This document shows positions 544 through 25,861 of a stretch of DNA of 25,861 nucleotides, one piece after another. Each line of letters starts with the position of its first letter. Position 1 is the stretch's first letter. A program made the position numbers and the translations under genes. Source of the stretch: a virus; the IMG/VR virus record IMGVR_UViG_3300013131_000222, positions 1 through 25,861 of that record. One strand, written 5' to 3'. The notes beneath the pieces are model-generated. The model was not told the origin of the DNA and searched no databases. It was given only the letters and a program-made list of their open reading frames with translations.

Positions 544-1390
544 TGAAGGCCCCCTGGCTCAAGAGCTGCTCCATGTATGCCTTCGCCTCCGGGACCAGGT
601 GGCGCGCCGTGATGCCGGGGTGTGTCCAGTTCCGGCCGCCCTCGTCTTCGCGAAACGACTCGGGGTTGTTGCTGATGGTGCGAAACGTCATGAACTGGTT
701 CTGCGTGTCCTTCTCGTAGGTCTTCTCCTCGCGAACCATGCCCGCGAAGATGTCCGTAACGTGGCGCGCGCGCAAACGCTCCGCACCGGCTGTGCCGGGG
801 GCCAACCGCCCGCCGTACTGCACCTGACCACCGCCCACCGCGCTCAGCGTCGGCGCGAGCTTGCCCGCCGCGCGCATGACCGCCCGGCCCATCGTGCGGG
901 CCGCCGTCGCCGTGAGGTCGCCACGGAACGCCTTGGAGTCGGCGCGCAGGCTGGCCTCGGTGAACTGCGACCCGGCTGGCGCCCCGTTGCGCCCGCCGGC
1001 GCCCGCGCCCATGTGCCGGAACGGGATGCTCACGTAGAGGTAGCCCGCCTTGGACACCTTCAGCCGGCGCGTGCCCGGCTTGAGGATGGTCAAGCGCAAG
1101 TCCCACGAGGACATGCCGTGCTCGACCATCCAGGGCAGAGAGCCCAGGACCTCGATGACGTACCGCTCCGCGCCCGTGGGGCCCTTCTCCAGGCGCATCG
1201 GCTGGATGGCCTTCACGTAGTCGCGGGCCGACGTGAAGAGCCGCTGCTGCGCCAGCACGACGAGGCGCGAGCGCGCGACCTGGGCGGCCTTCTTCAGGTT
1301 GAAGCTCTTCGACACGCCGGCGACACCCGCGAGCTCGGGGATGCTGGCCAACTCGGTCGGGTCGAGGTACTCAGCCACCGACGCCCCCAT
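536..1390 (-). CDS. Phage head-tail connector/completion-like protein (284 aa)
   Basis: A 284-residue protein starting at the ATG at 1388-1390 and overlapping the upstream gene by 20 bases. Near the C-terminus (about residues 235-268) it has MTFRTIS followed by NWTHPGITARHL. This W-x-HPGI-x-A-R combination I associate with phage neck or tail-completion proteins. The N-terminal third is helical and basic and contains a SKSFN segment resembling the KS motifs of the capsid module. The middle has a Gly/Ala-rich stretch (about 126-140). No enzymatic motif is visible. Its position between a Cys-rich connector-like protein and a methyltransferase supports a structural role. The specific function (neck, tail terminator or minor tail) is inference. 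Confidence 0.6.
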   Translation of the reverse strand: MGASVAEYLDPTELASIPELAGVAGVSKSFNLKKAAQVARSRLVVLAQQRLFTSARDYVKAIQPMRLEKGPTGAERYVIEVLGSLPWMVEHGMSSWDLRLTILKPGTRRLKVSKAGYLYVSIPFRHMGAGAGGRNGAPAGSQFTEASLRADSKAFRGDLTATAARTMGRAVMRAAGKLAPTLSAVGGGQVQYGGRLAPGTAGAERLRARHVTDIFAGMVREEKTYEKDTQNQFMTFRTISNNPESFREDEGGRNWTHPGITARHLVPEAKAYMEQLLSQGAFNA

Positions 1391-12246: not shown

Positions 12247-13680
12247 TTACTCGAAGCCGATGACCGCCGGCGTCATCACGGGGGCGTTGGGATCGCGGCC
12301 CACGTTGATGAGGCGGAAGCAGTGGCGGGGCGCCTTGAGCTGGAGCGCGCCGTAGAGCACCTGCATCCAGCGGATGCTGGTGTCGATGGTCGCGAGCGGC
12401 AGCTTCGTGAAGGGCGCGAGCTGCTTCCAGCCCAGGGTCGCCGGCTTCATCTCCAGGCCGAACACCGTCGAGCAGCCGGGGAGGTAGGCGTTGCGGTCGA
12501 TGATGTCCTGCGTGGGGCCCGTGCGCGCGACGCGGAAGGCTTCCTTGCAGGTCGTGGCCGCGCCACCCTTCTCGGAGCGGTAGACGATGTAGCCGGTCGT
12601 GTCCTGGCCGCCGTCCACCACCGGGATCGTGACGTTGTCGCCGGCGGCGGGGGAGACGCTGGCCGTGGTGACCGGGGCCGACCGCCCGAAGCGGTTGATG
12701 GCCACGATCTTGTAGTAGTACGCGCCGGCGTCACCGGCGGCGAACTGCGCGGTCGCGTCCACGGGGGAGGTCAGGCCGGCCGCGCCGATGGCGGGGGCCA
12801 GCGGGCGCTTGCTCGCCTTGCCCAGGCCGGAGGCGTGCGGGGCGCCGCCCTCCTGGATGAAGACGTTGTCCTCGATCTTCACGCCGCCGAAGCCGTCCAC
12901 CTTCGGCTCGAAGTCGACCTTGTCCCCGAAGCCGCCGCGGAGGCGCGCGCGGATGCGGTTCTTGATGTCGTTCTTCACGCCGATCGAGCAGAAGATCGTG
13001 TCGATCATGCCGTAGTTCGGCGCCATCCGGACGGAGGCGCACATGCCCGAAAGGACCTCCTCGGAGAGGGGGTCGCCGCGCATGTCGTAGGTCGGCGTGC
13101 CGCCGGCCGCCATCAGAGCGTTCAGGCCGTCGAACTGCACCGGCACGATGGCCGAGTCGCCGAAGAAGAGCGACTCCTCGAGCTGACGCATCAGCCAGAG
13201 CGTGCCGTTCTTCGTCTCCTGCGCGACGGCGTTCTCGATGCCGGCGGTGCGGACCAGGCTGGCGACGTGGGTGACCCGGCGGGTCGTGCCCATGAACTTC
13301 ACCAGCGTGACCTCGCGGGAGTAGGTGCTGTCCTCCTCCTCGGGGAGGTCGCCCTCGCCCATGAAGCCGGCCTCGCCCGCGCCGACCTTGTGGAGGCGGT
13401 TGTACTCCTCGGCGGTGTTGTAGGCGGGGTCCTTGTAGACGCCCTTCCAGAACTTGAACTCCTGCTCCGTGTAGGTCATGGATGTCAGCAGCGGGTCGAG
13501 CGACTCCGGCATCAGGGGGCCGAGGGCCCCGGCGGTCTGGACGCCGTGCGTCCCGCCGTTGCCGCCGCCCGCGCTGAGCGCCTTGTTCAGCTCGGCGACC
13601 TCTTCCACGCCGGCCGCGCCGGGGCCACCGGCCTGCTCGCCGTAGCCCTGCGTGAAGTCCTGCCAGTCGATGAGTGCCAT
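12247..13680 (-). CDS. Major capsid protein with inserted Ig-like domain
   Basis: A 477-residue capsid subunit, probably HK97-fold. The N-terminus (about 56-95) has PLMPESL...TYTEQEFKFWKGVYKDPAYNTAEEYN. The C-terminus has DRNAYLPGCSTVFGLE then LGWKQLAPFTKLPLATID and LYGALQLKAPRH. Both blocks match what I know of the capsid family found in SPO1/Twort-like and other large phages. Between them, residues about 295-388 (GAYYYKIVAINRFGRSAPVTTASV...TGYIVYRS) form a fibronectin/Ig-like domain, an insertion also seen in relatives. The N-terminal 35 residues may be removed at maturation: ELNKALSAGG (31-39) resembles motifs in the protease and scaffold. The Shine-Dalgarno GAGGAG lies 9 bases before the ATG. 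Confidence 0.88.
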   Translation of the reverse strand: MALIDWQDFTQGYGEQAGGPGAAGVEEVAELNKALSAGGGNGGTHGVQTAGALGPLMPESLDPLLTSMTYTEQEFKFWKGVYKDPAYNTAEEYNRLHKVGAGEAGFMGEGDLPEEEDSTYSREVTLVKFMGTTRRVTHVASLVRTAGIENAVAQETKNGTLWLMRQLEESLFFGDSAIVPVQFDGLNALMAAGGTPTYDMRGDPLSEEVLSGMCASVRMAPNYGMIDTIFCSIGVKNDIKNRIRARLRGGFGDKVDFEPKVDGFGGVKIEDNVFIQEGGAPHASGLGKASKRPLAPAIGAAGLTSPVDATAQFAAGDAGAYYYKIVAINRFGRSAPVTTASVSPAAGDNVTIPVVDGGQDTTGYIVYRSEKGGAATTCKEAFRVARTGPTQDIIDRNAYLPGCSTVFGLEMKPATLGWKQLAPFTKLPLATIDTSIRWMQVLYGALQLKAPRHCFRLINVGRDPNAPVMTPAVIGFE

Positions 13681-13726
13681 GTTGCTTCTCTCCTCAGTTT
13701 GGCCGTTGCCTGGCCGGTCTTCGCGC

Positions 13727-14488
13727 TCAGCCCTTGGCCTGGCGCAGGGTGGACTGCTCGATCTCGTTCGCGATGGCGTCCTTGCGGCCCGCCAGGAGCA
13801 GCGCGACGCTGTTCTGGAGTTGGTGCGCGCGGCCTTGATCGCCCGCGTCGAGGCTCTTTCTCAGCTCGGCGTTCATCGCGTTCGCGAGCTGGCCCTTGCT
13901 CAGGCCCGTGGGCGCCTGGCCGCCGCTGCCGCCCGCGTTGAAGCTCTTGGCCATCGGGGCGGAGGTCACCGTGCGGGGGGCCACGGGGGCGCCGGCCGCG
14001 GCGGTGAGCCGGTCGATCTTGTCGTGCAGGCGGGCGTTTTCGGCCGTGATCGACTTCACCAGCCCCAGGAGCAGCTTGCCCGTGGCGAGCACGGCGTCGT
14101 TGTTGATCGCCTGCTGCTGGCTGATCTCCGCGACTCCGGCGCCGAGGTCGTCGGCGTGCGCCGAGACGTGCTCCACGAGCGACTTCACGAACCCGGTCGC
14201 GTCGAGCGACTTGGCGAGCCCGATGTTGGTGGCCTCGCCGACGCGGTCACCGAGCGAGGCGCCCGTCTGCACGGCCTGCCCCTGGATGGCTTCGAGCTCG
14301 TCGAGCGCCTTGGACAGCCCGGTCGTGTCGAGGGACTTCTCCATCGACCCGTCGGGGTTGTCATCGCCCTCGTCGTCGTCGTCCTCGTCGGGCTCGCTCT
14401 CCATGGCCTTCAGGAGCTTGTCCTTGGCCTCGCAGTCCGGCATGGCCTTCAGGTTCTCGAGGAACTCGGCCTTGCTCTTCTTCTTCAT
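13727..14488 (-). CDS. Scaffold-like capsid assembly protein with repeated KS motifs
   Basis: I place the start at the ATG at 14486-14488 (ATGA overlap with the protease). The protein has 253 residues: a basic N-terminus, a very acidic run (residues 31-46, mostly D/E), and then mainly helix. Seven K-(S/A)-(L/I/F) sites occur at about 51, 60, 93, 102, 145, 181 and 211. Two of them sit in an internal repeat, KSLDTTGLSKAL (51-62) and KSLDATGFVKSL (93-104). The position between protease and capsid gene is the usual place for a scaffold. Helical content and the acidic N-terminus fit. The repeats may be cleavage sites for the adjacent protease, so the scaffold would be chopped up for exit. Confidence 0.7.
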   Translation of the reverse strand: MKKKSKAEFLENLKAMPDCEAKDKLLKAMESEPDEDDDDEGDDNPDGSMEKSLDTTGLSKALDELEAIQGQAVQTGASLGDRVGEATNIGLAKSLDATGFVKSLVEHVSAHADDLGAGVAEISQQQAINNDAVLATGKLLLGLVKSITAENARLHDKIDRLTAAAGAPVAPRTVTSAPMAKSFNAGGSGGQAPTGLSKGQLANAMNAELRKSLDAGDQGRAHQLQNSVALLLAGRKDAIANEIEQSTLRQAKG

Positions 14489-15294
14489 CGGGCGTCTCCC
14501 ATGCGGCGCGCGAGCGCCAGAATGCGGTCCACTTCCGCGGGCGACGCCCCCGGGTGCCGGACCTTGATGATTCGTTCGGCCAGGCTCTTCGAGAGCGCCA
14601 GCCCGCCGTTGGCCGCGAGCCACTCGTCCGTGATCGCCTTCGCGCGCTTCGCCACCGCGACCGGATCGGGTCCGCCGATGGTGAGGCGCACACCCAGCGA
14701 CTCGGGCATGAGCGGCCGCGCGCTGCCGGCGACCGCGACACCCGGCGACTGCCCCGGCCCGCCGACGGACAATGCCTTCGAGAGCTGCATCGACTTCACG
14801 AGGCCCAGCTTCGTGAACGGGTTCACCGGACAGTTCGTGATGGCCACGTTGCGGACGACGGCCTTCACGATCCGGTTCGGGTTGCGGGGGTCACGCTCGG
14901 GCGGCGGACCCTCGACACTGAACCCGAGCTGGCGCGGCGTGCCGTCGAGCGCGCGGGCGAGGTTGGCGATCCGCTGCGCCTCGGGCGTGTTGAGCAGGTA
15001 GCCCTCCACCGCCGTCGCGCGAACCTTCTTCCCGTCCTCGTCGTCGAGGGTGACCGCGTAGACCTTGTCCGGGTAGCCCAGGATGTCGGTCGTGCTCTTC
15101 GAGTGGTTGTCGTTGAAGAAGCCGCGCTTCAGGAAGTACCCGAAGTCGATGCCGTCCTGGACGATCGTGTCGCCGTCCTGGTCCATGTGCTCGGTGCTCG
15201 CCACGCCGCGAATGCGCACGCGCTCTTTGCCGTCCGCGCCCTTCTCCAGGCCGACGACATCGAACGGAATCCAGCGGTGAAACGAATCGGGCAA
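14485..15294 (-). CDS. Prohead maturation protease (HK97/U35-S78 type)
   Basis: A 269-residue serine protease. After GVASTEHMDQDGDTI (30-44) comes FFNDNHSKSTTDILGYP (59-75), which carries the likely catalytic His64. LGFSVEG (123-129) carries the likely Ser126. AITNCPVNPFTKL (151-163) is the last domain strand. These are the hallmarks of caudovirus prohead proteases. The start is a TTG (15292-15294) with GGAG seven bases upstream; no ATG or GTG is in frame before residue 37. The tail past residue 165 is unusual: LSKALSVGG...GVAVAG...PLMPESL (171-200) parallels the capsid protein's N-terminus, and KSL recurs at 236. The tail may be an autocleavage or targeting segment. It cleaves scaffold and capsid in the prohead (family knowledge). 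Confidence 0.85.
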   Translation of the reverse strand: MPDSFHRWIPFDVVGLEKGADGKERVRIRGVASTEHMDQDGDTIVQDGIDFGYFLKRGFFNDNHSKSTTDILGYPDKVYAVTLDDEDGKKVRATAVEGYLLNTPEAQRIANLARALDGTPRQLGFSVEGPPPERDPRNPNRIVKAVVRNVAITNCPVNPFTKLGLVKSMQLSKALSVGGPGQSPGVAVAGSARPLMPESLGVRLTIGGPDPVAVAKRAKAITDEWLAANGGLALSKSLAERIIKVRHPGASPAEVDRILALARRMGDAR

Positions 15295-16793: not shown

Positions 16794-18001
16794 CAGGCGG
16801 CCTCCGCGAGCCGCTCGGCGGCCACGGCCTCGAATGTCCGGCCGTCGCCGTCCAGCGTCGCGGCCTTGCCCGTGAACGCCTGCCAGCGCCGGACCGCCAC
16901 GTCCACGTACTCTGGCGCGAGTTCGACCGCGTAGACGTGCCGGTGGGTCATCTCGCCCGCGATGATGGTGGTCCCGCTTCCGCTGAACGGCTCGTAAAGA
17001 GTCGCGCCGCGTTCCGTCGTGCGTTCGATCAGCCACTTCCACAGGCCGACAGGCTTTGGGCATGGATGGTCGATATCTGGCGAGACCTCGGTGTGGACGA
17101 TGGCGTCTGGATGGCTTCCTTTGCCCTTGGCAAGTTTCGGATCCTTGCCGTAGCAGAGCATTGGCTGCCAGCAGCAGAATCCCCACGGCCCGCAGCCTAT
17201 CCCGGCCGGCGTGAACCACGCCATCGTCCATGTCGGCCTTGGGTAGATGAACTGATTCATTATTCCCGATGTCAGAACGACGACGGGCGCAATGCCTTGC
17301 GCAATCGGAAGAAACCCATCGACCAGCGTTTTCAGGTTCTCCACGCTGTCGTCATAGGTCGCATAGTTGTTCTTGTCGGTCGCTGAATTCCCGAGGCCAT
17401 AAGGTGGGTCAGTCAGACATGCGTCAGCCTTTCTGCCGCCCGTGGCGCGATGGACGGCATCCGCGTCTGTGCACGAACCGCAGATCAGCCGATGCTCACC
17501 CATGAGCCACAGGTCCCCGGCCCGCGTAACCGGCTGCTGGGGGGGTGCTGGCGCGTCGTCCGGATCGCCACCACCGCCACCTGGCGGTTGCTGCTCCGCG
17601 AACGCCCACAGCGCGTCGAGCTTGAGGTCGCTGAACAGGTCGCCCAGGGCCGCCTGCGCATCACCGAGCAGCTCGGCCAGTTGCGCCTCCGCCCAGTCGC
17701 CGCCGATGGCCGCGTTGTTGAGCGTGAGGTTCAGGGCTTTCTCGTCGGTCTCGTCGAGGTCGACCACCCGGACTTCGGCGTGCGTCTCGCCCAGGGCCAC
17801 GAGCGCCTTCACGCGCTGGTGCCCGCCCGCGAGCCGATTGAGGCGCCGGTTGAACACGATGCCGCCGAGCTCGCCGAACTTCGACAGGCTTGCCTTGAGC
17901 CCGGCCATCGCCGCCGGGGTCATCTTGCGCGGGTTGTAGCCGGCCGGCAGCAGGTCGGTCAGCAGCATCCGCACCGTCTCGGTCTGCGGGATCGCCGTCA
18001 C
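16793..18001 (-). CDS. ParB-like domain fused to DNA methyltransferase
   Basis: A 402-residue fusion. Residues 1-125 are a ParB/Srx-type nuclease-like domain (LLPAGYNPRKMTPAAMAGLKASLSKFG, then the GGHQR box at 59-63). A Gly/Pro-rich linker spans 138-157. Residues 160-380 form an amino-methyltransferase: DPPY at 198-201, GPWGFCCWQPMLCYGK, HPCPKPVGLWKWLIE at 312-326, then FSGSGTT at 339-345 and YAVELAPEYVDVAV. The DPPY-before-FSGSGTT order is the beta-class arrangement for N6-adenine or N4-cytosine methylases. Fusions of this kind are frequent in phages; the ParB part is thought to aid DNA recognition. Both domains look complete. Codon choice in about 17040-17440 is less GC-rich than in the ParB part. 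Confidence 0.88.
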   Translation of the reverse strand: MTAIPQTETVRMLLTDLLPAGYNPRKMTPAAMAGLKASLSKFGELGGIVFNRRLNRLAGGHQRVKALVALGETHAEVRVVDLDETDEKALNLTLNNAAIGGDWAEAQLAELLGDAQAALGDLFSDLKLDALWAFAEQQPPGGGGGDPDDAPAPPQQPVTRAGDLWLMGEHRLICGSCTDADAVHRATGGRKADACLTDPPYGLGNSATDKNNYATYDDSVENLKTLVDGFLPIAQGIAPVVVLTSGIMNQFIYPRPTWTMAWFTPAGIGCGPWGFCCWQPMLCYGKDPKLAKGKGSHPDAIVHTEVSPDIDHPCPKPVGLWKWLIERTTERGATLYEPFSGSGTTIIAGEMTHRHVYAVELAPEYVDVAVRRWQAFTGKAATLDGDGRTFEAVAAERLAEAA

Positions 18002-18306
18002 TCGGGGGCTCCAATCTTCGACAGGTAGGCGCCCACGTCCGCGACCAGCGCCCGCCCCTGCTCGGCCGCGGCGGCCTTCGCCGCCCGGTACATCGACAGG
18101 GTGACGGGGTGGCGGAACTTCTGCTCGATCGGGTCCGGCTCGCCTGGAGCCAGGGCCTTGTGCAGGTCCGGCTCGTGGTGCTCCGGGTGGTCGCAGGGCG
18201 CGGCGGCGGCCAGGGCGCCGGCGTCGAGCTGCATGAGCTGGCGCACGATCTCCGGCAGCTTGGCCAGGATCTCGCCCGGCTCGTGGTCCTCGACGCTCAC
18301 CCGCAT
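17998..18306 (-). CDS. Unknown small protein (102 aa)
   Basis: The ATG at 18304-18306 overlaps the end of the receiver gene by ten bases; the end overlaps the methyltransferase start by four. The first half is acidic and helical (EDHEPGEILAKLPEIVRQLMQLDAGAL). The central part has CDHPEHHEPDLHKAL, a His/Cys cluster that could bind metal. The last third is helical and Ala-rich (LSMYRAAKAAAAEQGRALVADVGAYLSKIG). It may be partnered with the methyltransferase or the receiver, but no family is recognised. Confidence 0.6.
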   Translation of the reverse strand: MRVSVEDHEPGEILAKLPEIVRQLMQLDAGALAAAAPCDHPEHHEPDLHKALAPGEPDPIEQKFRHPVTLSMYRAAKAAAAEQGRALVADVGAYLSKIGAPE

Positions 18307-18662
18307 GTTGCCCCCGCTGGCGAAAGCGCGGTCATGCGCTCGGTCATGTACTGCCACGGGCGCTCCAAAAGCTTCACCTTTCGGACCATGCTCGCCGGTC
18401 CGAGCGTCTCAAGCAGGTCTGAGCACAGCATGGCCGGGATGCCTCGCCGCTCTGCCGCGACGATCACGTCGGCCCCCGAGGCGTTCCCGCGAAACATCAG
18501 GTCGGACAGCACGAAATCGAACGCCTCGCCTGCGACGATGCGCTCGATGCCATCTGCGGGCGTCGGGCTCTGGACCAATTCGATCTCGGGGACGGCGCGG
18601 CGCAGCCGCCACCGGAGCGCCTGAATGAAGTCGTCGTCGTCCTCGACCACCAGCACTCGCAT
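18297..18662 (-). CDS. CheY-like response-regulator receiver domain (121 aa)
   Basis: A single-domain receiver. MRVLVVEDDDDF gives the acidic pocket (E7, D8, D9). FDFVLSDLMFRG (48-59) gives the presumed phospho-acceptor D54 on the third strand. AMLCSD provides S81, and KVKLLERPW (95-103) aligns with the fifth-strand 'K-P' segment, with R101 where the switch Lys usually stands before Pro. No output domain follows and no kinase is encoded nearby. The preferred start is the ATG at 18660-18662, with AAGGGG five bases upstream. A GTG two codons earlier overlaps the previous stop but lies too close to that site. It may intercept a host phosphorelay or act as a binding module; phage-encoded receivers are uncommon in this genome region. 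Confidence 0.75.
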   Translation of the reverse strand: MRVLVVEDDDDFIQALRWRLRRAVPEIELVQSPTPADGIERIVAGEAFDFVLSDLMFRGNASGADVIVAAERRGIPAMLCSDLLETLGPASMVRKVKLLERPWQYMTERMTALSPAGATCG

Positions 18663-18664
18663 GA

Positions 18665-19138
18665 TCACCCCTTGGTGCCATTTGGCTTGATCGATCGCAG
18701 CACGTCGTTCTCGATCTTGGTCGCGAGCGCCTGGAGTTGCAACACGCTCAGCTCGCGCGGGACCATCTCGGCAGACAGTTTTTCCAGGCTCGCATTGAAC
18801 TCGTCGCGAGCCAGCTTGGCCTCTCGGGCCTGATCCTCTCGGGCGCGATGGCTCTCCGCGATGAACGATGCGAGCTCGTTCCGGCGCTCGACCACCGACG
18901 CCTGGAGTTGCGTGGTGAGCGTCGTGAGCTGCTGCGTGAGGTGCTCCTGCCGGGCCTCGTACTTGCCGACGTCGCGCCCGAGCTTCAGCAGCAGCCCGAT
19001 GGTCGGCGTGATTGCGATGGCCGCCATCACCCCATACCCGACCAGCGTGCCCGTGCTGGGCTCCGCGGTCATGCCTTGCGCCATGGCGACGCTGCCCCAG
19101 CAGCAGGCGAAAGCGATCATCCCGAACGGTAACTTCAC
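18665..19138 (-). CDS. Membrane-anchored coiled-coil protein (157 aa)
   Basis: Starts at a GTG (19136-19138) in a GTGA overlap, with GGGGAG four bases upstream. Residues 1-21 (MKLPFGMIAFACCWGSVAMAQ) look like a signal peptide with an A-M-A cleavage site. A membrane helix follows at about 30-52 (TLVGYGVMAAIAITPTIGLLLKL). Residues 55-145 are a long coiled coil (YEARQEHLTQQLTTLTTQLQ...SLEKLSAE). It belongs to the same coupled group as the two membrane proteins at 19135-19979, suggesting a lysis or envelope role. If the signal peptide is cleaved, the coil would be cytoplasmic, unlike an inner-membrane spanin. No family name is offered. Confidence 0.6.
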   Translation of the reverse strand: MKLPFGMIAFACCWGSVAMAQGMTAEPSTGTLVGYGVMAAIAITPTIGLLLKLGRDVGKYEARQEHLTQQLTTLTTQLQASVVERRNELASFIAESHRAREDQAREAKLARDEFNASLEKLSAEMVPRELSVLQLQALATKIENDVLRSIKPNGTKG

Positions 19139-20455: not shown

Positions 20456-21289
20456 TCAGGAGAGCGGCATCTGCTCGTCTGCGGGGCGGGATGTCCGACC
20501 GCTGCGGCGATCAGCCTCGGCGCGGAAGGCGGCCATGGCGCCGGGGTGGAAGTCGGGACGCGAGAGCACCCAGCGCAGGAGCCCGGCGTCGATGTCCGTC
20601 AGGCGAGCGCCGCGCGACTTCCCGAAGCCCAGGCGCAGCACGGCCTCGCCGTCGCCCAGTATATCCCGGTAGAGCTTGCGCCCGAAGTCCCGCTCCTCGC
20701 GGACGAGCACCTCGCGCCACTGGGCCTGGACCTGGAAGGCATGGTCCAGCCCCGTAGGCATCAGCCCCTCGCGGACGAAGGCCACGAGCAACTCGGCGGT
20801 GGCGCGGGCGTCGTCGTCGGCGGCGTGGGCGTTGTCGAGGGTGATGCCGTGGCGCCCGCAGACGTCCGACAGCTTCGACGGCAGGTGGTTGTGCCGCCGG
20901 CGCAGGAAGATGAACGGGTCGAGCACGCGGGCGCCGTCCAGCCGGAACGAGAGCCCCTCGTTCTCGAAGGCCGCGTTCACCATCGGCACGTCGAAGTGGA
21001 CGGCGTTGTAGCCGGCGAGCACGACGTCGTCTGCCCCGAGGCGCTCGGCGATGCGCTGGGCGACGTCCCCGAAGAACGGGTCGCCGGCGACGTCCTGATC
21101 GCGGATGCCGTGGACGCTCGATGCCTCGGGCGGGATGGGCATGCCGGGGTTCAGCCGCAGGGTGAAGCTCCGGCCGACCTGGCCGCGGATGAGCTCGACC
21201 GCGGCGATCTCCACGACGGCGTCGCGGGCCGGGTCAATACCGGTGGTCTCGGTGTCGAAGACGAGGATGTTGGCGTCGAGGATGTTCAC
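20456..21289 (-). CDS. DnaQ-type 3'-5' exonuclease with DUF3820-like tail
   Basis: A 277-residue DEDDh exonuclease. FDTETTG (11-17) gives D12 and E14, GYNAVHFD (93-100) gives D100, and HAADDDARAT (155-164) gives H155 and D160. All five catalytic positions are present. The start is a GTG (21287-21289) overlapping the previous stop, with GGAGG seven bases upstream. Past residue 180, RLGFGKSRGARLTDIDAGLLRWVL (219-242) and a basic helix resemble DUF3820 domains ('FGK-x-x-G-x-x-(L/I)-x-(D/E)-(L/I)-x-x-x-(Y/L)-L-x-W'). This combination is known from phages. It may act in replication, repair or host DNA turnover. It closes the regulatory island before the 476-base gap. Confidence 0.85.
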   Translation of the reverse strand: MNILDANILVFDTETTGIDPARDAVVEIAAVELIRGQVGRSFTLRLNPGMPIPPEASSVHGIRDQDVAGDPFFGDVAQRIAERLGADDVVLAGYNAVHFDVPMVNAAFENEGLSFRLDGARVLDPFIFLRRRHNHLPSKLSDVCGRHGITLDNAHAADDDARATAELLVAFVREGLMPTGLDHAFQVQAQWREVLVREERDFGRKLYRDILGDGEAVLRLGFGKSRGARLTDIDAGLLRWVLSRPDFHPGAMAAFRAEADRRSGRTSRPADEQMPLS

Positions 21290-21501
21290 GATGTCGCCTC
21301 CAGGAACGCTTCCTTGAACGTGCTGGCCAACTTGACCAGCTTGTTGAGCCGACCGAGGGATTCCTCGGTGATCTCGACCGTGCCGAACCGGGAACGACAC
21401 TTGAGGCACTCCCGACGTCGATGCACCTGACCTTTCCGTGCCCGCGAGTTGATGACCTTCGTGTCCCCCGCGCACGAGGGGCAGACCACGCCGGCGCTCA
21501 C
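21286..21501 (-). CDS. NrdR-like zinc-ribbon protein without ATP-cone
   Basis: A 71-residue protein starting at a GTG (21499-21501) that overlaps the previous stop. VVCPSCAGDTKVINSRARKG then HRRRECLKCRSRFGTVEI (about 5-43) is close to the N-terminal zinc ribbon of the ribonucleotide-reductase repressor NrdR ('CPxC ... SR ... RRRREC-x-x-C-x-x-RF-T-x-E'), with C7, C10, C32 and C35. NrdR normally continues with an ATP-cone of about 100 residues; here only a short helix follows. It may bind NrdR-type DNA sites, or be a general zinc-ribbon module. It sits between the XRE protein and the exonuclease. Confidence 0.7.
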   Translation of the reverse strand: MSAGVVCPSCAGDTKVINSRARKGQVHRRRECLKCRSRFGTVEITEESLGRLNKLVKLASTFKEAFLEATS

Positions 21502-21797
21502 GGCGCGGCCACGTCCGGGCGCACCAGCGGCTCCCATGGGCTGCCCGGATCCAGGGCCGCCACCGGAACGCCGAGCGCCCTGGCGAACCGCTCGATGGCG
21601 TCGTCAGGGCCCCCGCCGGGGCGCCTCCAGGGGCGATTGCCGCCCAGGTACAGGTTGACCTGGGCCTGGGACATGGGGCGCTCCATTCGGGCGCCCAGGT
21701 CGGCCTGCGTGAGGCCGATACGGGCCATGCGCACCTTGACGCGCTTGGCGGTGGTGTCCTCGTCCGGGGGCGGTCTCTGCGTCTCGGATGTGTCCAT
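21498..21797 (-). CDS. XRE-family HTH regulator (99 aa)
   Basis: The start is the ATG at 21795-21797. The frame is open to 21833, but the extra residues fall in the AT-rich control region. Residues about 20-85 (VKVRMARIGLTQADLGARMERPMSQAQVNLYLGGNRPW...AIERFARALGVPVAALD) follow the Cro/C1-type helix-turn-helix pattern: 'L-T-Q-x-x-L-A/G' then 'S-Q-x-x-V-x-x-Y-L'. It heads a three-gene group with a NrdR-like ribbon and the exonuclease. It could regulate that group or the late genes. Three GGCCGG boxes lie directly upstream and may be its operators. Confidence 0.75.
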   Translation of the reverse strand: MDTSETQRPPPDEDTTAKRVKVRMARIGLTQADLGARMERPMSQAQVNLYLGGNRPWRRPGGGPDDAIERFARALGVPVAALDPGSPWEPLVRPDVAAP

Positions 21798-24560: not shown

Positions 24561-25861
24561 TTACGCCTTCGAGTGGTGCTTGTGGGCCATCCGGAGCGCG
24601 CCGTCGTGCTTCCCGGATGCGATGTCGCTGGCGAGCGACGGCTTGGCAGCCCCGTTGGTGATCGCGTCGGCCAGGTGTCGCCCGGCACGGCCGTCGAGCA
24701 TCTCGCGCGCAGCGTCGTGCGTCGTCTTGTTGACACTGGCGCTGCGCTTGACCGCCGCGTCGAAGGCCGCGCGGGTGTGCTCCAACTTGTCCCCGCCGTC
24801 GGGCATCGCGTTCGACACCGTCCCGTGGAACCCGAACGATCTGTTTTTGGAGTGAACCCGATCGGACGGCTGGCCGGCAGCGGAGAGCCCTGCGGGGGTC
24901 GCCTTGACGATGTGATGCCCGGCCGGGTCCTTGCTGATGGTGACGTGGCCGGAGGCCGCCAGGGCCTTGTGGCTGATCGACGGCCTCGATGTGGCGACGC
25001 CGCCCTCTTCGTGGGTGTCGACGATCCTCTTCAGCTCAGCCGCGCGCTCTGGGTCCATCTCCGCCCGGCCGTGTCCGCTCGCGGCGTCTGACGCCTTGCT
25101 GGCCGCTGCTGACAGGTCGGACGCATTGTGGGCCCCTCGTCGGTGCGCGTTCAGCGCGTCGGCGTGGGCGCCGGCGGCCGCCCGGTGCGCAAGGTATTCG
25201 GCGCTCCCACGCGCCGCGGACTCCATCGCGTCTGCGTGCTCGTCGAGCTTCCTCTGGTGAAAGTCGGCCGACGTCTTGTCGACGGCGTGCCCCGTCGTGG
25301 GGGCGCCCTTCCACGGGATGGTGTGGGCGGCGTCGGCCCACTTGCCCCCGTGGGGGCCGATGAACGGGCCGCCGGACTTCGCCATCGGCGCCTCCGGCGG
25401 GCACCGGACGCCAACGACGGCCTGCTGCGCGGCTCCGGCGGCGATGTGCCCGTAGAAGGCGCCCATGCTCTTGCGCATGCCGTTCACCGCGCCTCGCTGG
25501 GCGCTGTAGGTGGTCGGCTCGGGGCTGGCCGGGGTGGTGACCTCGGCGGCAGGCTTGGAGCCCGCCACGACGGCGGGGAGGTGGCCCAGGGCGTCGCCGG
25601 TGCCATTGCTCCCGGCGAACGCGAAGCCGCGGGCCGCCACGGGCGACTCCATCGACTTGCGGAAGGCTGCGAAGGTGGGGCGCTGTTGGTCGGGGATGCC
25701 CGCCCACGCTTTGACGAGCCCGGCGACGCGGCCGGCCTGGGCCATGCCGGCGTTGAACTCGCGGGTGGAAGCGGCGTCGTTGGCCGTGGCCTCGTAGAGC
25801 CCGGCGGCCTCGCGGTGCGCGGCGGCGGCGCCCGCGTCCGGCTGTGCCGCGGCGGCGGCGA
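24561..25861 (-). CDS. Unrecognised head-associated protein, N-terminus beyond the window
   Basis: About 432 residues are visible and the frame stays open to the right edge (Ala-rich ...HREAAGLYEATANDAASTREFN), so the start lies outside; the first ATG in view (25743-25745) is probably internal. The middle has APMAKSGGPFIGPHGGKWAD then HTIPWK, a conspicuous GG-x-x-x-G-x-x-GG-x-W-A-D...IPW motif. His/Ala/Asp-rich helices follow, then HVTISKDPAGHHIVKATP and SKNRSFGFHG, and a helical, basic tail (KHHSKA). Three KS motifs (FRKSM, MRKSM, MAKSG) resemble those of the protease and scaffold. It lies directly upstream of the portal. I cannot assign a family. Confidence 0.6.
   Translation of the reverse strand, partial: AAAAAQPDAGAAAAHREAAGLYEATANDAASTREFNAGMAQAGRVAGLVKAWAGIPDQQRPTFAAFRKSMESPVAARGFAFAGSNGTGDALGHLPAVVAGSKPAAEVTTPASPEPTTYSAQRGAVNGMRKSMGAFYGHIAAGAAQQAVVGVRCPPEAPMAKSGGPFIGPHGGKWADAAHTIPWKGAPTTGHAVDKTSADFHQRKLDEHADAMESAARGSAEYLAHRAAAGAHADALNAHRRGAHNASDLSAAASKASDAASGHGRAEMDPERAAELKRIVDTHEEGGVATSRPSISHKALAASGHVTISKDPAGHHIVKATPAGLSAAGQPSDRVHSKNRSFGFHGTVSNAMPDGGDKLEHTRAAFDAAVKRSASVNKTTHDAAREMLDGRAGRHLADAITNGAAKPSLASDIASGKHDGALRMAHKHHSKA

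Follow-up and report, generated by a model that had tools for sequence, protein, structure and literature searches.

Predicted lysine-directed cleavage code in the capsid protein, scaffold and protease tail of an SPO1-type phage head module

The head genes of a virus genome fragment of 25,861 nt (a 25.9-kb virus record, here called the window) carry a repeated short motif, Phi-x-K↓(S/A)-Phi, in which Phi is L, I, V, F, M or W, the arrow marks the bond expected to be cut and the P3 position is hydrophobic. The motif occurs in four proteins, namely a head maturation protease, a scaffold, the major capsid protein (MCP) and a protein encoded upstream of the portal, and it coincides with the first residue of two mature capsid chains in relatives. 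From comparative sequence evidence, it is highly likely that the protease matures the head by cutting the capsid protein, the scaffold and its own tail at this motif.

Three consecutive genes on the minus strand are identified by sequence comparison as those of the head-maturation protease (15294-14485, 269 aa, TTG start; phrog_1028, 6.5e-37), the scaffold (14488-13727, 253 aa), whose start overlaps the protease stop, and an MCP of the SPO1/SU10 type (13680-12247, 477 aa; phrog_752, 9.1e-75). The capsid protein matches Pfam SU10_MCP (1.8e-5) and SPO1 Gp6.1 chain 9vel (4.7e-57), and Pfam and PHROG profile searches gave nothing notable among the matches of the scaffold. The protease has tblastn matches in herelleviruses, and its H64 and S126 are invariant in nine aligned relatives, as is the whole G124-F125-S126 stretch. 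Pfam Peptidase_S78 (PF04586) was matched by one of the nine protease relatives (5.5e-4), and profile comparisons with HK97 gp4 (hhalign E 0.13) and HK97 gp5 were not significant.

Closest to the window is a 78.9-kb IMG/VR contig (G001); among named phages, its nearest relatives are SPO1-like and other herelleviruses, together with phages that infect Chryseobacterium, Bacteroides, Thermus and Aeromonas. Likeness to the SPO1 type concerns the head module of this fragment. The order protease-scaffold-capsid is that of SPO1 (gp3.2-gp3.3-gp6.1) and of phage K (ORF42-43-44), capsid and protease are homologous to theirs, and in the head genes of SPO1 and the Herelleviridae the motif is likewise found in all three proteins, with a capsid-like cassette in the protease tail. 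The window differs in that its capsid protein is about 32% identical to that of SPO1. In addition, about 7.6 kb separate its portal gene (listed from 24557 to 22887) from the protease gene, whereas in SPO1, K and others the portal gene is directly upstream and adjacent, an arrangement that the SPO1-type module is not known to require.

A sequence-only reading of the window had pointed to K-(S/A)-(L/M/F) triplets in these three proteins and proposed a comparison with shuffled sequences, in which the recurrence proves genuine and far above chance. K[SA][LMF] occurs eight times in the window scaffold, where shuffling gives 0.71 (p = 0.0003, the lowest value that 3000 shuffles allow), and three times in the protease against 0.30 (p = 0.004), while the single occurrence in the capsid protein, against 0.47, is not significant as a count (p = 0.38). 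The scaffold, credited at first with seven sites, holds eight such triplets plus one KSI, at K14, K27, K51, K60, K93, K102, K145 (the KSI), K181 and K211. Under the refined motif, eight sites are present (K27, 51, 60, 93, 102, 145, 181 and 211; within 13727..14488, minus strand) against 0.18 expected (p 2e-11, for an ORF with a longer N-terminus).

The protease, scaffold and capsid sequences compared came from the window, eight IMG/VR loci and 14 named phages, and the motif was refined on 22 related scaffolds. A scan of all dipeptides in these scaffolds, with no motif assumed, placed KS first (172 against 49.2 expected, z 18.7) and ED second (z 5.8), and positions -2 and +2 around KS are strongly hydrophobic. 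The full Phi-x-K-[SA]-Phi motif was counted 103 times where 4.9 were expected, and no more than 15 times in any of 2000 shuffle sets; because related phages are not independent, the enrichment p-values are only descriptive. The K-[SA]-Phi triplet is weakly or not enriched in the scaffolds of LMTA-34, SIOphi, A9 and two Thermus phages. A continuation of the sites as (S/D/N)-x-(G/T), also proposed earlier, is seen in the window and is only weak across the family, with D/T/N at +3 and A/G at +4.

It could be argued that disordered scaffolds rich in Lys, Ser and Leu would yield such triplets anyway, and scaffold translations are indeed compositionally biased. However, composition-preserving shuffles never came near the observed count, KS was singled out by the dipeptide scan, and Phi-x-K-[SA]-Phi is absent from the control scaffolds T4 gp22, T4 gp68 and P22 gp8. 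These results refute an artefact of composition, and chance is an exceedingly improbable explanation. Beyond the nearest relative, scaffolds share only 18-25% identity with that of the window and their columns are poorly conserved; site density has therefore been kept despite sequence drift. The same observation weighs against the view that the repeats reflect shared ancestry, the scaffold and protease tail having been duplicated from the capsid N-terminus without any role in cleavage. For all the clear resemblance between the protease tail and the N-terminus of the capsid protein, this view is very unlikely given the retention of sites in such divergent scaffolds.

In the capsid protein, the site owes its significance to its position and not to its count. 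The KALSAGG segment described earlier is present at residues 33-39, and L31, K33, A34, L35, A37 and G38 are invariant in nine IMG/VR relatives, the rest of the capsid N-terminus being variable. Of 23 related capsids, 22 have Phi-x-K-[SATG]-Phi within residues 15-55, whereas 1000 shuffles gave 1 on average and 6 at most. The MCP of staphylococcal phage K/812 starts, as deposited in chain 9row, at S25 after VVK24 (VVK↓SFQT); chains 9row, 9rox and 9roz have the same sequence as the capsid protein of phage K and all begin at Ser25. Likewise, HK97 capsid chain 1ohg begins at S104 after FNK103 (FNK↓SLGS), and the HK97 cleavage site is named K103/S104 and lies in an unstructured part of the shell (PMC10275583). 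The window junction ELNK33↓AL (13576..13584, minus strand) aligns with both Lys sites, FNK103↓SL and VVK24↓SF, and because these two deposited mature chains begin at the motif, K33↓A34 is very probably the maturation cut of the window MCP. Chain 9vel (SPO1) and entry 5lii were deposited with full-length sequences and are neutral as to cleavage. The capsid protein of Listeria phage A511 is reportedly processed at Lys-23, with which K23 in its relative LMTA-34 agrees. The mature capsid protein is thus predicted, by homology to the mature termini of 9row and 1ohg, to comprise residues 34-477 (444 aa, 47.3 kDa, from 50.7), which agrees with the earlier forecast of trimming near residue 35.

The window capsid propeptide junction therefore carries Phi-x-K↓(S/A)-Phi as in HK97-type Lys↓Ser maturation. 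HK97 shares with the window the Lys↓Ser cut, the hydrophobic P3 and P2' residues (FNK103↓SL), its placement in a flexible stretch and a protease gene that adjoins the capsid gene. HK97 differs in having no separate scaffold, since the N-terminal delta domain of its capsid protein gp5 serves instead (PMC10275583). The tail of the HK97 protease, gp4, is also KS-rich (4 against 0.6) but is without a capsid-like cassette. Other phages follow the same principle with another specificity: in T4 (gp21/gp22/gp23) and SPN3US (gp245), a single protease cleaves the head proteins as well as itself, recognising a short motif that recurs in them, and the cut follows Glu motifs rather than Lys. In T4, gp22, which by annotation is degraded by gp21, contains 16 [IL]xE against 5.7 expected, and in SPN3US cleavage motifs are repeated in internal head proteins (PMC10052503). 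The mature capsid of P1 starts SVAAEM (PMC9024508), the preceding residue is Glu, and the P1 capsid propeptide, DarA and Pro contain none of the Lys sites. Site density therefore follows protease specificity, and a motif universal among phages is ruled out.

The three sites reported earlier in the protease tail are K167, K173 and K236. GLVK167↓SM (14788..14796, minus strand) has a Lys that is invariant in nine relatives, QLSK173↓AL (14770..14778, minus strand) matches the motif, and ALSK236↓SL (14581..14589, minus strand) lies in a predicted C-terminal helix. An additional match at K144 falls on a predicted strand within the catalytic domain and is probably due to chance and not a site. The AlphaFold model of the protease (moderate confidence, nine sequences) places the catalytic core at about residues 24-165, a disordered stretch at 167-209 (pLDDT < 50) and helices at 211-268, and a fold search with this model returned no useful PDB match. 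The predicted disorder coincides with a cassette and its two sites: protease residues 164-205 (14680..14805, minus strand), containing K167↓S168 and K173↓A174, are a copy of the N-terminal region of the capsid protein, residues 24-66 (13483..13611, minus strand).

When the capsid protein was searched against the window by local BLAST, these two segments were 52% identical (E 2.9e-5), a similarity with p about 2.5e-6 by shuffles. The copy starts at the cleavage site and is 30-40 residues long; in phage K, the corresponding capsid and protease-tail pair reads MKSFLTGHGTSPDTQVDAGALRKE and VKSFQTGYGITPDTQIDAGALRRE. Most relatives possess the cassette, and for 17 of the 23 compared the fitted p is about 1e-4 or below; it is weak in L025 and L029 and was undetected in L005, L007, MA9V-3 and DAC16. 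Matched capsid and protease cassettes outscore permuted pairs (their sum was reached in 0 of 20000 permutations), much of which reflects clade structure. In deep contrasts between the capsid and protease copies, self exceeds cross in 240 of 253 pairs, which suggests that the two copies evolve together. Nearest-neighbour contrasts are weak and mixed, with 8 of 11 positive and two or three strongly so, and strict concerted evolution is inconsistent among close relatives. Recent gene conversion between the two genes is unlikely because identical residues often use different codons.

In the simplest reading of sequence and model, the protease would part from its own tail at the same type of bond as is cut in the capsid protein. 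The similarity that continues past the cut suggests a second role of the cassette in docking or self-inhibition. The tail would then mimic the capsid N-arm, in SPO1-type phages and distant relatives alike, and may seat the protease in the lattice by posing as a capsid arm, or act as an internal substrate that inhibits it, until self-cleavage releases it; this proposal is tentative, with a likelihood somewhat short of even. An alternative is that the motif and the shared cassette serve in docking or targeting, bringing scaffold, protease and cargo together on the capsid lattice, and that only the capsid site is cleaved. Protease and capsid remain similar for about 30-40 residues past the cut, a longer stretch than the active site of a protease would be expected to recognise, the portal-upstream protein also has sites, and targeting signals are used by phage capsids, for instance in the case of P1 DarB (PMC9024508). 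Docking alone is nevertheless unlikely, as the scaffold sites share only the P3-P2' core without the long cassette, and this core matches two mapped capsid termini. Docking and cleavage may also coexist.

Under the preferred explanation, cleavage of all three proteins, the protease, scaffold and capsid protein would form a procapsid, in which this protease would act as the enzyme and cleave after Lys at Phi-x-K↓(S/A)-Phi. The capsid protein would lose residues 1-33, and the scaffold would be diced into pieces able to exit the shell, predicted at about 9-43 residues if all eight sites are used. The protease would cut its own tail after K167 and/or K173, and the portal-upstream protein would probably be carried into the head and processed too. 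The shared recognition motif for the prohead protease that was first suggested from the window is thereby supported and sharpened, from a triplet to Phi-x-K↓(S/A)-Phi.

Across genomes, the motif is selective. In the window, the three top-ranking ORFs are the scaffold, the protease and the portal-upstream protein, and the top three in the 78.9-kb relative are the scaffold (7 against 0.21), the portal-upstream protein (6 against 0.15) and the protease (3 against 0.19). In SPO1, where a simple caller defined 191 ORFs, only the scaffold reaches significance after correction (8 against 0.24). The portal-upstream protein (24561..25859, minus strand), a fragment at the window edge, has sites K50↓AW, K68↓SM and K130↓SM in open-fragment numbering, three against 0.19 expected (p 9e-4), and its homologue in the 78.9-kb relative (L033:5987-6973) has six against 0.15 (p 1.2e-8). 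Because only this protein stands out genome-wide beside the scaffold and protease, it is a probable further substrate and a candidate processed internal head protein. The triplets noticed earlier in this protein fare unequally: FRKSM and MRKSM belong to the enriched sites, and MAKSG is present but does not fit the refined motif. No Pfam match was found for the protein in the window or in the 78.9-kb relative, and no excess of sites is seen in the large proteins that other IMG/VR loci encode upstream of the protease. Compared with the relative, the window version is extended at its C-terminus by a part that includes a GGPFIGPHGGKW segment.

A weaker candidate is GVSK28↓SF (1301..1309, minus strand) in the protein encoded at 536-1390. 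The SKSFN segment reported there is present and the site is conserved in the 78.9-kb relative (GVSKSF / GVAKSF), but on numbers alone it is not significant (p 0.15).

Lys↓Ser capsid maturation in HK97 and repeated motifs in the internal head proteins of SPN3US are already known. A literature search, with most subscription papers outside its reach, found no report of Lys↓Ser cleavage of a herellevirus scaffold or of a capsid-like protease tail; a scaffold-wide Lys code in this group and the cassette in the protease tail may thus be unreported, a statement kept tentative because of that reach. The analysis provides a testable cleavage code for a large group of phages, among them staphylococcal, listerial and enterococcal ones under study for therapeutic use, and from sequence alone it predicts where mature proteins begin, which scaffold fragments arise and which further proteins are head cargo. 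A protease tail that mimics the capsid could account for the entry of the protease into the procapsid or for its silencing.

Several neighbouring features were also recorded. Chryseobacterium phage MA9V-3 encodes protease and scaffold as a single fused ORF of 532 aa (L010:8198-9796), the scaffold part of which retains nine cleavage-type sites. Two N6/N4 DNA methylase genes (1-543 and 16796-18001; Pfam N6_N4_Mtase, 4e-8 and 1e-13) flank the structural genes of the window. A small response-regulator-receiver-like protein (18300-18668; Pfam Response_reg, E 0.0014, below the cut-off) is odd among phage structural genes, and a similar ORF is found at 13259-13621 of the 78.9-kb relative. An 83-aa protein encoded at 21289-21537 has an NrdR-like zinc ribbon (5.5e-11) with no other NrdR domain, and it adjoins a DnaQ-type exonuclease (20459-21430; RNase_T, 4e-25).
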